Shown here piece after piece: positions 52,017 to 63,242 of a DNA stretch of 64,000 bases. The translations under genes were made by a program, and so were the position numbers. The DNA lies in assembly GCA_033344895.1 (NCBI GenBank), contig JAWPMN010000001.1, forward strand, positions 1,922,001 to 1,986,000. The letters run 5' to 3'. Position 1 is the first letter of the stretch; each line of letters begins with the position of its first letter. A model generated the notes under the pieces. The model was not told the origin of the DNA. It made no database searches and saw only the letters and a list, made by a program, of their open reading frames with translations. The DNA is from Alphaproteobacteria bacterium. Its GTDB lineage: Bacteria > Pseudomonadota > Alphaproteobacteria > UBA8366 > Aestuariispiraceae.

Positions 52017-52045
52017 TGATCCACCGTGACCGTCGCCGCGTATCG
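52017..52045 (+). promoter_or_regulatory. Candidate ECF sigma (RpoE/ChrR-type) promoter of the DUF6134-photolyase operon
   Basis: TGATCC at 52017-52022, then 16 bases, then CGTATCG at 52039-52045, 35 bases before the start codon at 52080. TGATCC is the -35 element associated from memory with RpoE-ChrR-type ECF sigma factors; the -10 is not an exact match to a consensus I can quote. The identical arrangement recurs at 62420. The operon content (photolyase, lipid enzymes) fits a photo-oxidative stress regulon. Confidence 0.6.
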
Positions 52046-52079: not shown

Positions 52080-52745
52080 ATGCCGTCCGCAATTGATCGC
52101 CGCACCATTCTTTTGGGCCTGACCGGATTAGCCCTATCGGGCGGGATCGGTGCCGCTCGGGCCGGTCTGACCACGCCGGATGCCGATCGGACCTTTGCGG
52201 TCTTTCGCAACGGCGACCCGATCGGGCATCACAAGATCGATATCCGGGCTGAGGGCGAAAGGACGGTGGTCGATATCGATATATTGCTGGAAGTCGGAAT
52301 CGGTCCGCTGATCCTTTACCGGTACACTCATCGAAATCGCGAAATCTGGCAGAACGGCGCGTTCCAAAGCTTCGAATCCGAAACAGATGACGACGGTGAC
52401 ACCTACCGGATAAGGGCCGAGCGGGATGGCGACGTGATCCGTGTGAGCCGCAGCCGGGGTGACGATTACGAGACCGGCGACCTTTCCCTCCTGCCCACGA
52501 CCTATTGGAACCCGGAAACGGTCAACCGCCCCCGGATGATCAATACCCAGGACGGCGAGATCGTCGAGGTGCAGATCGATGCTGGTGACTGGCAGGCCGT
52601 GGAAACCGCCGCCGGCCAGGTTGACGCCCGCCGCTTCGATGTCCGGGGCGATATGACCCTCAGTCTCTGGTACGATCGCGCCGGAAACTGGACAAAACTG
52701 TCCTTCCCGCTGAAGGGGGACGAGTTCGAGTATCAGCTGGCCTGA
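52080..52745 (+). CDS. Exported protein of unknown function, DUF6134-like
   Basis: A 221-residue protein with a twin-arginine-like start (DRRTILLGLTGLALSGG) and a probable cleavage near AARA. The mature part is a beta-rich lipocalin-like pattern (FAVFRNGDPIGHHKIDIR, REIWQNGAFQSFESETDDDG, MTLSLWYDRAGNWTKLSF) resembling the DUF6134 family by memory. It is the first gene of the plus-strand stress operon, followed one base later by the photolyase. Possibly a lipid-handling periplasmic protein; that is a guess. Confidence 0.7.
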   Translation: MPSAIDRRTILLGLTGLALSGGIGAARAGLTTPDADRTFAVFRNGDPIGHHKIDIRAEGERTVVDIDILLEVGIGPLILYRYTHRNREIWQNGAFQSFESETDDDGDTYRIRAERDGDVIRVSRSRGDDYETGDLSLLPTTYWNPETVNRPRMINTQDGEIVEVQIDAGDWQAVETAAGQVDARRFDVRGDMTLSLWYDRAGNWTKLSFPLKGDEFEYQLA

Positions 52746-60846: not shown

Positions 60847-62295
60847 TCAGGCCGCCCCCTTGATTTCATCATATGCACTCAACGCCCTCTCCCGCGCACG
60901 CTTGTGTTCGACAATCGGCTTTGGATAGGTCCGGCCCAGATCGATGCCGGCCTCGTCCAGAACGCTGTCGGGCGCGGTCCAGGGCTCATTCAGGTATTTG
61001 TCCGGCAGCGCAGCGATCTCCGGGATCCAGCGCCGGATATAGGTCCCGTCGGGGTCGAACTTTTCGCCCTGTCCGATCGGGTTGAAGATTCGGAAATAGG
61101 GGGCGGCGTCGGCGCCGCAGCCCGCGACCCATTGCCAGTTCGCAACATTGTTGGCCAGGTCCGCATCCACCAGCGTGTCGCGGAACCATGCCTCGCCGTG
61201 CCGCCAATCGATCAAGAGGTGCTTCACCAGGAAGGACGCCGCGACCATCCGCACACGATTGTGTATGAAACCGGTATGCCAGAGCTCCCGCATGCCGGCG
61301 TCGACCATCGGATAGCCGGTCCGGCCTTTCTGCCAGCGTTTCAGCGCGTCCTCATTGTCCAGCCAGGGAAAGGCGTCGAATTTTTCATTGTAGTTCCGCA
61401 CCGGCATTTCCGGATTGTGGAACAGCAGGTTGTGGTTGAAGTCCCGCCAGCCGATTTCACGCAGGAAAGACCAGATTCCGGACTCGGCCTGGCCGCCCTC
61501 GCGGTGGGCCGCGTCGCGGGCAATGTGCCAGATTTCCCGGGGGCTGAGTTCACCGAAGGCCAGATGCGGGCTGAGGCGTGACGTGCCGTCCAGGTCGGGA
61601 CGGTTCCGCCTGTCGCCATATCGGGCGACAGAGGATTCCAGAAAATCCGACAGCCGCGCGCGTGCCCCGGACTCACCCGGCGACCAGCTTTCCTGAAGGC
61701 CGCCGGACCAATCCGGCTTGGTCGGCAGCAGCGACCAGTCTTCCAGGTCGTCCCCGGACCTGTCTGTGGGCAGGCCTGGTAGAACGTCCGGCGCCGCGAC
61801 CGGCCTGGGCGGGTCGCCCATGGCGCAAAGGGCCTTCCAGAAAGGCGTGAAGACGCCATAGGCTCCGCCAGCCTTGGTCTTGACCTCCAACGGTTCGCGC
61901 AGCAGCGAGCCGTTGAAGCTTTCGACGTAGAATCCGCGATCCTTCAGATCGGTTTTCAGGTTCATGTCGCGGGCGACCGCTTCGGGCTCGTAGCATCGGT
62001 TCCAGAAAACGGCTTCGATGTCGAATTCCCTGCAAAGGTCGGGAATGATCGTGGGGGGCTCGCCCGATTTCAGGATGAACGTTCCGCCACGCGCAGCGAT
62101 GTCGTCCGCCAGTGCTGCAAGACTGTGGTGAAGCCACCAGGCGGCGGCCCCGCCGACCGGAAGGGCACCGCTTGTCGCCTCATCGCGAATGAACACGCAG
62201 ACCACGGGTCCACCGCGCGCAATGGCGGCCTGAAGAGCAGGGTTGTCAGAGAGGCGCAGGTCCTTGCGAAACCATACGAGGCTTGGGCCGGTCAT
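60847..62295 (-). CDS. phr: Class I CPD photolyase
   Basis: A 482-residue deoxyribodipyrimidine photolyase that repairs cyclobutane pyrimidine dimers with blue light. The N-terminal antenna domain starts SLVWFRKDLRLSDNPALQAA. The FAD domain has DGTSRLSPHLAFGELS, WQKGRTGYPMVDAGMREL, HNRVRMVAASFLVKHLLIDW and NVANWQWVAGCGADAAPYFR. ATG 62295 follows GGAAAG at five bases; a GTG at 62301 is an alternative. It heads the six-gene minus operon running to 55475. Confidence 0.95.
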   Translation of the reverse strand: MTGPSLVWFRKDLRLSDNPALQAAIARGGPVVCVFIRDEATSGALPVGGAAAWWLHHSLAALADDIAARGGTFILKSGEPPTIIPDLCREFDIEAVFWNRCYEPEAVARDMNLKTDLKDRGFYVESFNGSLLREPLEVKTKAGGAYGVFTPFWKALCAMGDPPRPVAAPDVLPGLPTDRSGDDLEDWSLLPTKPDWSGGLQESWSPGESGARARLSDFLESSVARYGDRRNRPDLDGTSRLSPHLAFGELSPREIWHIARDAAHREGGQAESGIWSFLREIGWRDFNHNLLFHNPEMPVRNYNEKFDAFPWLDNEDALKRWQKGRTGYPMVDAGMRELWHTGFIHNRVRMVAASFLVKHLLIDWRHGEAWFRDTLVDADLANNVANWQWVAGCGADAAPYFRIFNPIGQGEKFDPDGTYIRRWIPEIAALPDKYLNEPWTAPDSVLDEAGIDLGRTYPKPIVEHKRARERALSAYDEIKGAA

Positions 62296-62384
62296 ATACA
62301 CTTTCCAAACGGGCTTACCGAACGATGTGTCGGCGAGATTTTTTCATCACACTAATCGGTACGCGCGGGCGCCGCATTTTGGAT

Positions 62385-62413
62385 TACGACGCCACCGGCA
62401 ATTTTTTTGATCA
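62385..62413 (-). promoter_or_regulatory. Candidate ECF-type promoter of the photolyase operon
   Basis: On the minus strand TGATCA (62413-62408), 16 bases, then CGTCGTA (62391-62385). The layout matches the TGATCC-N16-CGTATCG elements at 52017 and 62420 but differs in the last base of the -35 and within the -10. It would start transcription about 80 bases before the photolyase start codon. Its -35 begins only six bases from the divergent element at 62420. Confidence 0.4.
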
Positions 62414-62419
62414 TTTCGG

Positions 62420-62448
62420 TGATCCGGCTCAGATCGGGCGGCGTATCG
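62420..62448 (+). promoter_or_regulatory. Candidate ECF sigma promoter reading away from the photolyase operon
   Basis: TGATCC at 62420-62425, 16 bases, then CGTATCG at 62442-62448: all 13 specified bases and the spacing equal the element at 52017. No protein-coding gene follows on this strand; instead a terminator stands about 100 bases on. It is the likely promoter of the candidate small RNA at 62455. Confidence 0.6.
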
Positions 62449-62454
62449 AGTGTA

Positions 62455-62553
62455 CGAACCGGTTCGACCGGTCGTCTACGGTAGACCCCTCCCCCCCACA
62501 TCTACCGATGGCAGGAGCGGGCCGGAATCGAGAGATTTCGGCCCGTTTCCGTT
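62455..62553 (+). ncRNA. Candidate stress small RNA with anti-Shine-Dalgarno loop
   Basis: About 100 bases between the ECF-type promoter (62420-62448) and an intrinsic terminator (62518-62553). A perfect seven-base-pair stem, CGGTAGA at 62479-62485 with TCTACCG at 62501-62507, exposes a 15-base loop containing CCCCTCCCCCCC (62486-62497), which could pair with GGAGG ribosome-binding sites. This recalls the alphaproteobacterial cuckoo (CcsR) RNAs, which carry CCUCCUCCC in hairpin loops and are induced by oxidative stress in Rhodobacter. The transcription start is estimated from the promoter, not seen. An alternative hairpin GTCTA-CGG-TAGAC (62474-62486) competes with the main stem. Confidence 0.5.
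62518..62553 (+). terminator. Intrinsic terminator, plus strand
   Basis: A 12-bp stem with one G-T pair, CGGGCCGGAATC at 62518-62529 and GATTTCGGCCCG at 62534-62545, a GAGA loop and TTTCCGTT directly after. The T-rich side is on the plus strand, so it does not fit as the terminator of the convergent pdeM gene, whose stop lies at 62553. Confidence 0.8.
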
Positions 62554-63242
62554 CAGGCAACCTTTCGCAGACGGGATCGTGGGACCCGAAGGACACCGCG
62601 CCGCATGGTAAGGTGGACACAAAATCCCTTTGGAAAGAGATCGGCTATGGCCGGATTCCAGACGGACAGACCCCCGGTATAGGCGCCGAACGACGGCAGG
62701 ATCAGGCGCCGGGCATCCTCGACGAAACACCGCGCGGACAGGCGTCTGGCGCGGGTCTCAATCGACGCCTTGGGGTGAAAGTGGCCGGAAACCTCCCCGG
62801 CGCCGGCCTGCGGTACTGCTTCGTGCCGAAACACCAGTGGCCCGTCGACCAGTTCTTCCTGGACGGTGCCGCCCAATTCCGCGGGCGGGGCGGGGTCGTG
62901 ATTGCCCGCAATCCAGATCCATTCCGTGGATTGGGTCAGATCGGAAAGGCAATTGCGATCCTGCGCGGTCAGTCGCCGCGCCGCGTCGCTGTCGTGAAAG
63001 CTGTCACCAAGGCAGATGACCCGGCGCGGCCTTGCCGCTGCGATGGCTTCGCGCAACGCCGTCAGGGTGGCACGGCTGTCATAGGGCGGCAGCATCTGGC
63101 CGGTGACCGATGCATAGGCGGAGCCCTTTTCAAGGTGAAGGTCGGCAACGATCAGCGTGTCGCGATCCGGCCAGTACAGGGCACCGTCGGACCGGGCATG
63201 CAGACGCGCACCATTCAGGAGAATCGGGCTTTCCACGGACAT
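62553..63242 (-). CDS. pdeM: Ligase-associated DNA damage response endonuclease PdeM
   Basis: A 229-residue calcineurin-like metallophosphoesterase. Metal ligands are in IVADLHLEKGSAYA, VICLGDSFHDSDAA, IAGNHDPAPP and VSGHFHPKASI. The LHLEKGSA string and length match PdeM, the nuclease encoded with an ATP-dependent DNA ligase and an Lhr-like helicase in bacterial repair operons. Here the helicase gene ends six bases upstream, supporting the name. The ligase gene would lie beyond the right edge. Confidence 0.92.
   Translation of the reverse strand: MSVESPILLNGARLHARSDGALYWPDRDTLIVADLHLEKGSAYASVTGQMLPPYDSRATLTALREAIAAARPRRVICLGDSFHDSDAARRLTAQDRNCLSDLTQSTEWIWIAGNHDPAPPAELGGTVQEELVDGPLVFRHEAVPQAGAGEVSGHFHPKASIETRARRLSARCFVEDARRLILPSFGAYTGGLSVWNPAIADLFPKGFCVHLTMRRGVLRVPRSRLRKVA

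Follow-up and report, generated by a model that had tools for sequence, protein, structure and literature searches.

A conserved locus for a predicted noncoding RNA with an RpoE-type promoter between the phr and pdeM genes of Aestuariispiraceae

Within the window, by which we mean the whole 64,000-nucleotide stretch of DNA analysed, positions 62420–62553 probably encode a small RNA (sRNA) of about 100 nt on the plus strand. This noncoding RNA would be driven by an RpoE promoter, ended by its own terminating hairpin and able to pair with G-rich mRNA through a cytosine-rich loop. From sequence, the analysis establishes that the unit is conserved, structured and apparently noncoding, with no contained open reading frame (ORF), and that it lies on the plus strand and follows a promoter of the RpoE type. 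We regard the sRNA family as real, conserved and, as far as our searches reached, undescribed, its function being proposed by analogy. The features of the locus are collected in Table 1.

Table 1. Features of the sRNA locus and of the second promoter copy, in positions of the window.
Feature	Positions	Strand	Remarks
Second exact promoter copy	52017–52045	+	Upstream of a row encoding DUF6134, photolyase-related, SDR and SnoaL-like proteins
phr, DNA photolyase	60847–62301	−	Left neighbour, first gene of the RpoE-regulon-like row; Pfam PF03441 and PF00875
Variant ECF-like promoter for phr	62359–62386	−	TAATCC-N17-CGTAC; divergent from the sRNA promoter
RpoE(ECF)-type promoter of the sRNA	62420–62448	+	−35 TGATCC (62420–62425), 16-base spacer, −10 CGTATCG (62442–62448); exact match
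Predicted noncoding sRNA	62453–62553	+	Start placed by means of the −10 element and end by the terminator-like hairpin, both as predictions
5′ hairpin	62454–62475	+	Variable in sequence; predicted for nine of the ten RNAs when folded singly, missing from G001
C-loop hairpin	62479–62507	+	Stem 62479–62485/62501–62507; loop 62486–62500 (CCCCTCCCCCCCACA), proposed target-binding site
Terminator-like hairpin	62518–62553	+	Stem 62518–62529/62534–62545 with interrupted T-tract
pdeM, ligase-associated DNA damage response endonuclease	62553–63242	−	Right neighbour; NCBIfam TIGR04123 over cut-off

Promoter type and genomic neighbourhood

The initial annotation had pointed to two exact copies of TGATCC-N16-CGTATCG in the window. 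Both are present on the plus strand, and the pattern did not occur in any of 100 dinucleotide shuffles of the window. The first copy lies upstream of the photolyase operon at 52080, as had been proposed, with 35 bases between the end of the promoter and the start codon. The second had been described as pointing away from the other photolyase operon with no gene in front of it, and it does face away from phr and has no same-strand gene downstream, pdeM being encoded on the minus strand.

Throughout the genome, the looser pattern TGATCC-N15..17-CGTA has 16 sites, compared with 1 for a reversed-pattern control. One of these sites starts 35 nt upstream of the earliest possible start codon in the ECF sigma factor ORF of an ECF-chrR pair, although translation of this gene may in fact begin at a later in-frame ATG; another precedes rpoH, and a further one is the copy at 52017. 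The chrR gene downstream of the ECF gene matches TIGR02451. For comparison, 14 genomes of the same family (Aestuariispiraceae) were analysed, with the window's genome as G000. Thirteen of them carry chrR, G006 being the exception, and in all 13 a relative of the ECF gene adjoins chrR and TGATCC-N16-CGTA lies upstream of the pair, always with a spacer of 16. The promoter of Pos19 in Rhodobacter sphaeroides is given as TGATCC(N15)GCGTA and as RpoE-dependent in excerpts of PMC5036791. Based on the ECF-chrR and rpoH sites and on the match to Pos19, the sRNA promoter is therefore assigned to the RpoE/ChrR type. The two features by which we recognise an RpoE/ChrR regulon, namely the promoter TGATCC-N16-CGTA and an ECF-chrR pair with the same promoter, are found together in this genome. 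The earlier proposal of an ECF-type promoter is thus supported, and the promoter type narrows the sigma factor to the RpoE of the RpoE/ChrR pair. In the ten homologous sRNA loci the spacer is invariably 16, and the −35 element reads TGATCC in eight of them, TGATCT in G013 and TAATCC in G001.

Leftwards from phr, the row continues with genes for an amine oxidase, a DUF1365 protein, a cyclopropane-fatty-acid (CFA) synthase, an MFS_2 transporter and a DUF3833 protein. In R. sphaeroides, the RpoE regulon lists phrA, cfaS, RSP_1091 to RSP_1087 and rpoHII (excerpts of PMC7074977). When matched by product names, the phr row and the SDR gene of the 52017 operon resemble this regulon. A variant promoter, T[AG]ATCC-N15..18-CGTA[TC], is located upstream of phr in 7 of the 14 loci, all seven of them sRNA-bearing, with a spacer of 17 in six loci and 16 in one; this suggests a differently tuned RpoE site. 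On the other side, pdeM adjoins phr in 11 of the 14 family loci, that is, in G008 and in all ten sRNA loci, where it consistently lies beyond the sRNA. In the stretches examined of G006, G009 and G010, a search next to phr gave no pdeM relative.

Structure and conservation of the predicted RNA

Positions 62454–62555 (102 nt) fold into three hairpins with an energy of −48.7 kcal/mol and a z-score of −4.72, which is better than 200 of 200 shuffles. The perfect 7-bp hairpin of the initial annotation was confirmed; it encloses a 15-base loop, in which the C-run stretch has a mean unpaired probability of 1.00 in the window and of 0.80–1.00 across the ten genomes. The 12-bp terminator with a plus-strand T-run that had been described next to it holds for the stem, which comprises 12 bp including one G-U pair, but less well for the T-run: the stem is followed by TTTCCGTT, an interrupted tract, and a strict terminator scan listed no site at 62518–62553. 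The former wording was thus slightly overstated, and the element is called terminator-like here. In none of the ten homologues does the transcript wholly contain an ORF of at least 10 aa.

A phr match was obtained in all 14 family genomes. The promoter and the RNA are situated between phr and pdeM in ten of them (G000–G005, G007, G011, G012 and G013), including Marivibrio halodurans (G012) and Hwanghaeella sp. (G013), which NCBI places in the Aestuariispiraceae, Rhodospirillales. In the other four (G006, G008, G009 and G010), the sRNA was not found upstream of phr, in the case of G008 even though phr adjoins pdeM there. G006 has neither chrR nor the sRNA, while G008, G009 and G010 have chrR and lack the sRNA at the locus. 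A promoter-plus-C-run pattern matched 9 of the 14 genomes, with 0 in the control, at ten places in total; the additional place, in G007, precedes an apparent rpoH start.

Folded singly, all ten RNAs form both the C-loop hairpin and the terminator hairpin (z-scores of −4.4 to −6.5). The C-run of the loop comprises six or seven cytosines in nine genomes (seven in the window), and CCYUCCCCCC is kept in the same number of the ten loops. The deviating sequence is G001, which, besides its −35 element, differs by a run of only four cytosines and by the absence of the 5′ hairpin. Conservation of the loop and of both stems in related genomes, on which the initial annotation had made its proposal depend, was accordingly observed in 10 of the 14 family genomes, with G001 deviating in its loop.

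Covariation was evaluated in two alignments. The plain MAFFT alignment (A3) contains six of the ten sequences; it omits G000, G001, G011 and G013, whose stems are out of register in MAFFT or whose sequences diverge. In A3, 94.6% of the cells are paired and 18 of 31 pairs show changes on both sides, and in controls with slid partners the pairing falls to 30–43% (at most 43.2%). Further pair types were not above those of shuffles (178 of 500 as high), and pair 32–62 of the middle helix is unpaired in three of the six sequences. In the model-fitted alignment of all ten sequences (A4), which leans towards structure, 96.3% of the cells are paired, 23 pairs have two-sided changes, and RNAalifold returned the same three hairpins. 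The terminator-like hairpin is paired in 100% of the cells of both alignments. G-U cells are far more frequent than A-C cells (32 versus 2 in A3 and 41 versus 2 in A4), and this wobble asymmetry indicates that the folding RNA is that of the plus strand.

Relation to known RNAs and range outside the family

The comparison with Rfam models recommended by the initial annotation returned no family at the gathering threshold in the window (Rfam 15), and the permissive matches of the window RNA and of loci L001, L012, L015 and L017 were all below threshold. Likewise, among the papers listed from an open-licence library, which lacks most subscription papers, none described the sRNA in its title or in the opening of its abstract. 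Among singlet-oxygen sRNAs, SorX and SorY (Rfam RF02784 and RF02651) had no match in the window RNA or in L001, L012 and L015 in a four-locus search. The L017 homologue reached 18.6 bits against SorX (gathering threshold 46.6; E of 1.9 over four loci and 0.02 over 171 bases) and 15.8 bits against SorY (gathering threshold 111); these matches were not counted because many unrelated families score equally high there.

GsrN of Caulobacter may serve as the closest working model for the sRNA, with a different promoter and different neighbours. According to excerpts of PMC5869019, six tandem C in the GsrN loop pair with G-rich mRNA, as shown by compensatory mutations, and GsrN activates katG; its promoter is of the sigmaT/EcfG type (GGAAC, CGTT), and its homologues typically lie near nepR-ecfG-phyR, C. 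crescentus excepted. GsrN is also processed to a 5′ isoform. The sRNA shares with GsrN a promoter type that would serve a stress ECF sigma factor and, except in G001, a run of at least six C in an exposed hairpin loop, but unlike GsrN its promoter is RpoE-type and its neighbours are phr and pdeM. The pattern GGAAC-N15..18-CGTT was found in none of the ten loci in a search that began 200 bases ahead of the −35 element and ended 150 bases past the RNA. A search of the window's genome for NepR (PF18557), which belongs to the core of the general stress response in Alphaproteobacteria, gave no match at E 0.001; the same check gave a match in Caulobacter among 14 control genomes. As there is no EcfG promoter in the ten loci and no NepR was found in the genome, membership of the GsrN family was rejected. 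Pos19 (RSs0019) of R. sphaeroides, which is located between cxp and fadB, is 219 nt long, encodes a peptide and is induced by singlet oxygen (excerpts of PMC5036791). Its promoter is the same element as that of the sRNA, with equal spacing, whereas the sRNA is about 100 nt long and has a C-run loop; identity with Pos19 was rejected because all ten homologues are devoid of a contained ORF of at least 10 aa.

Outside the family, covariance model R1 matched 9 of 43 genomes of the order at E 0.1, namely eight family members and G032. Among 385 genomes of the class, R1 matched 18 and a second model, R2, matched 20 at E 0.05, two of them belonging to the family in each case. Within the resulting loci (L058–L078 for R1 and L144–L150 for R2), the promoter is present solely in L059, a family member, and some of the R1 loci have the C-run alone. 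With strict filters R1 missed G011 and G013, which were found unfiltered, so the sensitivity is limited; within this sensitivity, the R1 and R2 searches gave no convincing homologue of the sRNA outside the family among the 43 order and 385 class genomes.

A promoter-plus-loop pattern was also applied to the 385 class genomes, of which nine matched, with 0 for the control among the matches listed. Two of the nine are the family sRNA. The match in G267 is an rpoH leader, the one in G380 precedes, as judged by eye, an apparent photolyase start, and the rest of the seven non-family matches, L133 aside, lie in or at open frames. As a separate observation, rpoH genes with TGATCC-N16-CGTA occur in the window's genome, in G267 and, by eye, in G007 (L043, L127 and L143), and the rpoH leader in G267 and G007 holds a C-run (CCTCCCCC) that resembles the sRNA loop.

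The same kind of scan over 84,980 named species returned 18 stretches, comprising eight of the family, two look-alikes and eight others. The eight others are taken as chance matches, each being spanned by an open frame of 161 aa or longer; this test is weak, as such frames reach up to 521 aa at the same place in family members. The first look-alike, from Emcibacteraceae, is intergenic (L082, 3624–3755, plus strand) and consists of TGATCC-N16-CGTA, a long hairpin with a C7 loop and a second strong hairpin. The z-score of this unit is about −7.5 and the longest open frame over it is 36 aa; no photolyase or pdeM was noticed among the L082 ORFs listed. The second, from Hyphomicrobiales (L090, 4230–4392, minus strand), lies beside an apparent hisG and has an RpoE-type promoter, a C-run between two hairpins and a hairpin followed by T6. 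Its z-score is likewise about −7.5, and a 497-aa frame is open over the unit, so that coding is possible there. Both match R1 poorly at the place of the RNA (11.7 bits for L082 and 11.6 bits for L090), and L082 scores 22.4 bits just upstream of its promoter, away from the RNA. L082 fits well and may be an RpoE-driven C-run RNA, for which L090 is the weaker candidate. In the same scan, CP051228.1 (L083), titled Mesoflavibacter sp., is identical in sequence to G004 over the stretch compared; Mesoflavibacter is a name from Bacteroidota, whereas G004 belongs to the window's own genus, and the label looks wrong.

Proposed function and alternative explanations

The following scheme is inferred as regards transcription and its induction by stress, base pairing through the loop, the targets reached and a possible requirement of the sRNA for Hfq. 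Under stress by singlet oxygen or peroxide, the anti-sigma factor ChrR would be removed and its ECF partner RpoE would be free to act. RpoE would then transcribe the sRNA together with the photolyases, the row containing the cyclopropane-fatty-acid synthase, and RpoH. The transcript would be ended by its own hairpin, and the middle hairpin would keep the cytosine run open in its loop. Modelled on the C6 loop of GsrN in Caulobacter, the loop would most likely pair with G-rich mRNA leaders or ribosome-binding sites and thereby alter translation or stability.

The initial annotation had described this hairpin as complementary to Shine-Dalgarno (SD) sequences. What stands of that description is the exposed C-rich loop; strict CCUCC complementarity does not, because CCUCC is found only in the loops of the window and G004, while seven loops have CCUUCC and that of G001 is different. 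Pairing with G-runs is consequently the safer statement. G-run ribosome-binding sites (GGGGGARGG-N3..12-RTG) number 25 in the window's genome compared with 14 in a reversed control, and only some of them look like true starts after translation; this weak excess is counted as no evidence for any target.

Several other explanations of the unit were considered. There is a small chance that the sRNA titrates a protein, either a binder of C-rich RNA or Hfq, instead of pairing with mRNA. The short loop of low complexity and the merely weak excess of G-run start sites would agree with this, but GsrN does pair with mRNA through its six tandem C, as compensatory mutations demonstrate (excerpts of PMC5869019). 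It is unlikely that the main role is an antisense one, in which transcription would interfere with the convergent pdeM and the hairpins would be only terminators. The promoter is indeed aimed at the 3′ end of pdeM, the hairpin ends at the pdeM stop codon, the same arrangement recurs at all ten sRNA loci, and the imperfect terminator makes read-through possible; a mere terminator, however, would not account for a C-run that hardly varies and sits in a covarying hairpin of its own ahead of the terminator. We consider it very improbable that the hairpins form a cis-regulatory element on the minus strand, as a pdeM 3′ UTR or a phr leader. Although both flanking genes, pdeM and phr, read in the direction of such an element, the wobble asymmetry in both alignments argues for folding of the plus strand, and the candidate phr promoter lies between the hairpins and the gene in 7 of the 14 loci.

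The likeness to the cuckoo (CcsR) RNAs put forward by the initial annotation turned out to be shallow. CcsR1–4 are stress sRNAs with C- or pyrimidine-rich hairpin loops, and a CCUCC-type anti-SD loop is a defining feature of the members. The C-rich loop of the sRNA and a promoter of the type found in the photooxidative stress response are in line with such an assignment. Against it, the sRNA has an RpoE-type promoter of its own, whereas CcsR1–4 are described in published excerpts as processed from the ccaF1 3′ UTR, and no Rfam family matched at threshold. The gene upstream of the sRNA is phr on the opposite strand, and the four plus-strand ORFs scanned around the site gave no Pfam match at E 0.1, DUF1127 included, in agreement with the earlier remark that this neighbour is lacking. 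Hence, a CcsR/cuckoo-type RNA is highly improbable, and an RpoE-driven sRNA acting through its C-run loop is the reading we prefer.

The promoter and the structure of this sRNA are sharp enough for direct testing, and the ten aligned homologues together with the covariance model can serve to define a family of the Rfam type and to map targets. The RpoE/ChrR response has been studied mainly in Rhodobacter; if transcribed, the sRNA would add a noncoding arm to this response in another alphaproteobacterial lineage. It is possible, though rather doubtful, that a GsrN-like C-run sRNA arose independently or was re-wired under RpoE, the singlet-oxygen sigma factor, in a lineage in which the window's genome gave no NepR match, and that other orders of Alphaproteobacteria likewise have C-run RNAs driven by RpoE. 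If this were true, the C-run loop would be a general effector module into which different stress sigma factors have plugged. Placed side by side, GsrN under EcfG and, if transcribed, the present sRNA under RpoE suggest that stress sigma factors of Alphaproteobacteria have repeatedly used a hairpin loop with a C-run as their output device.
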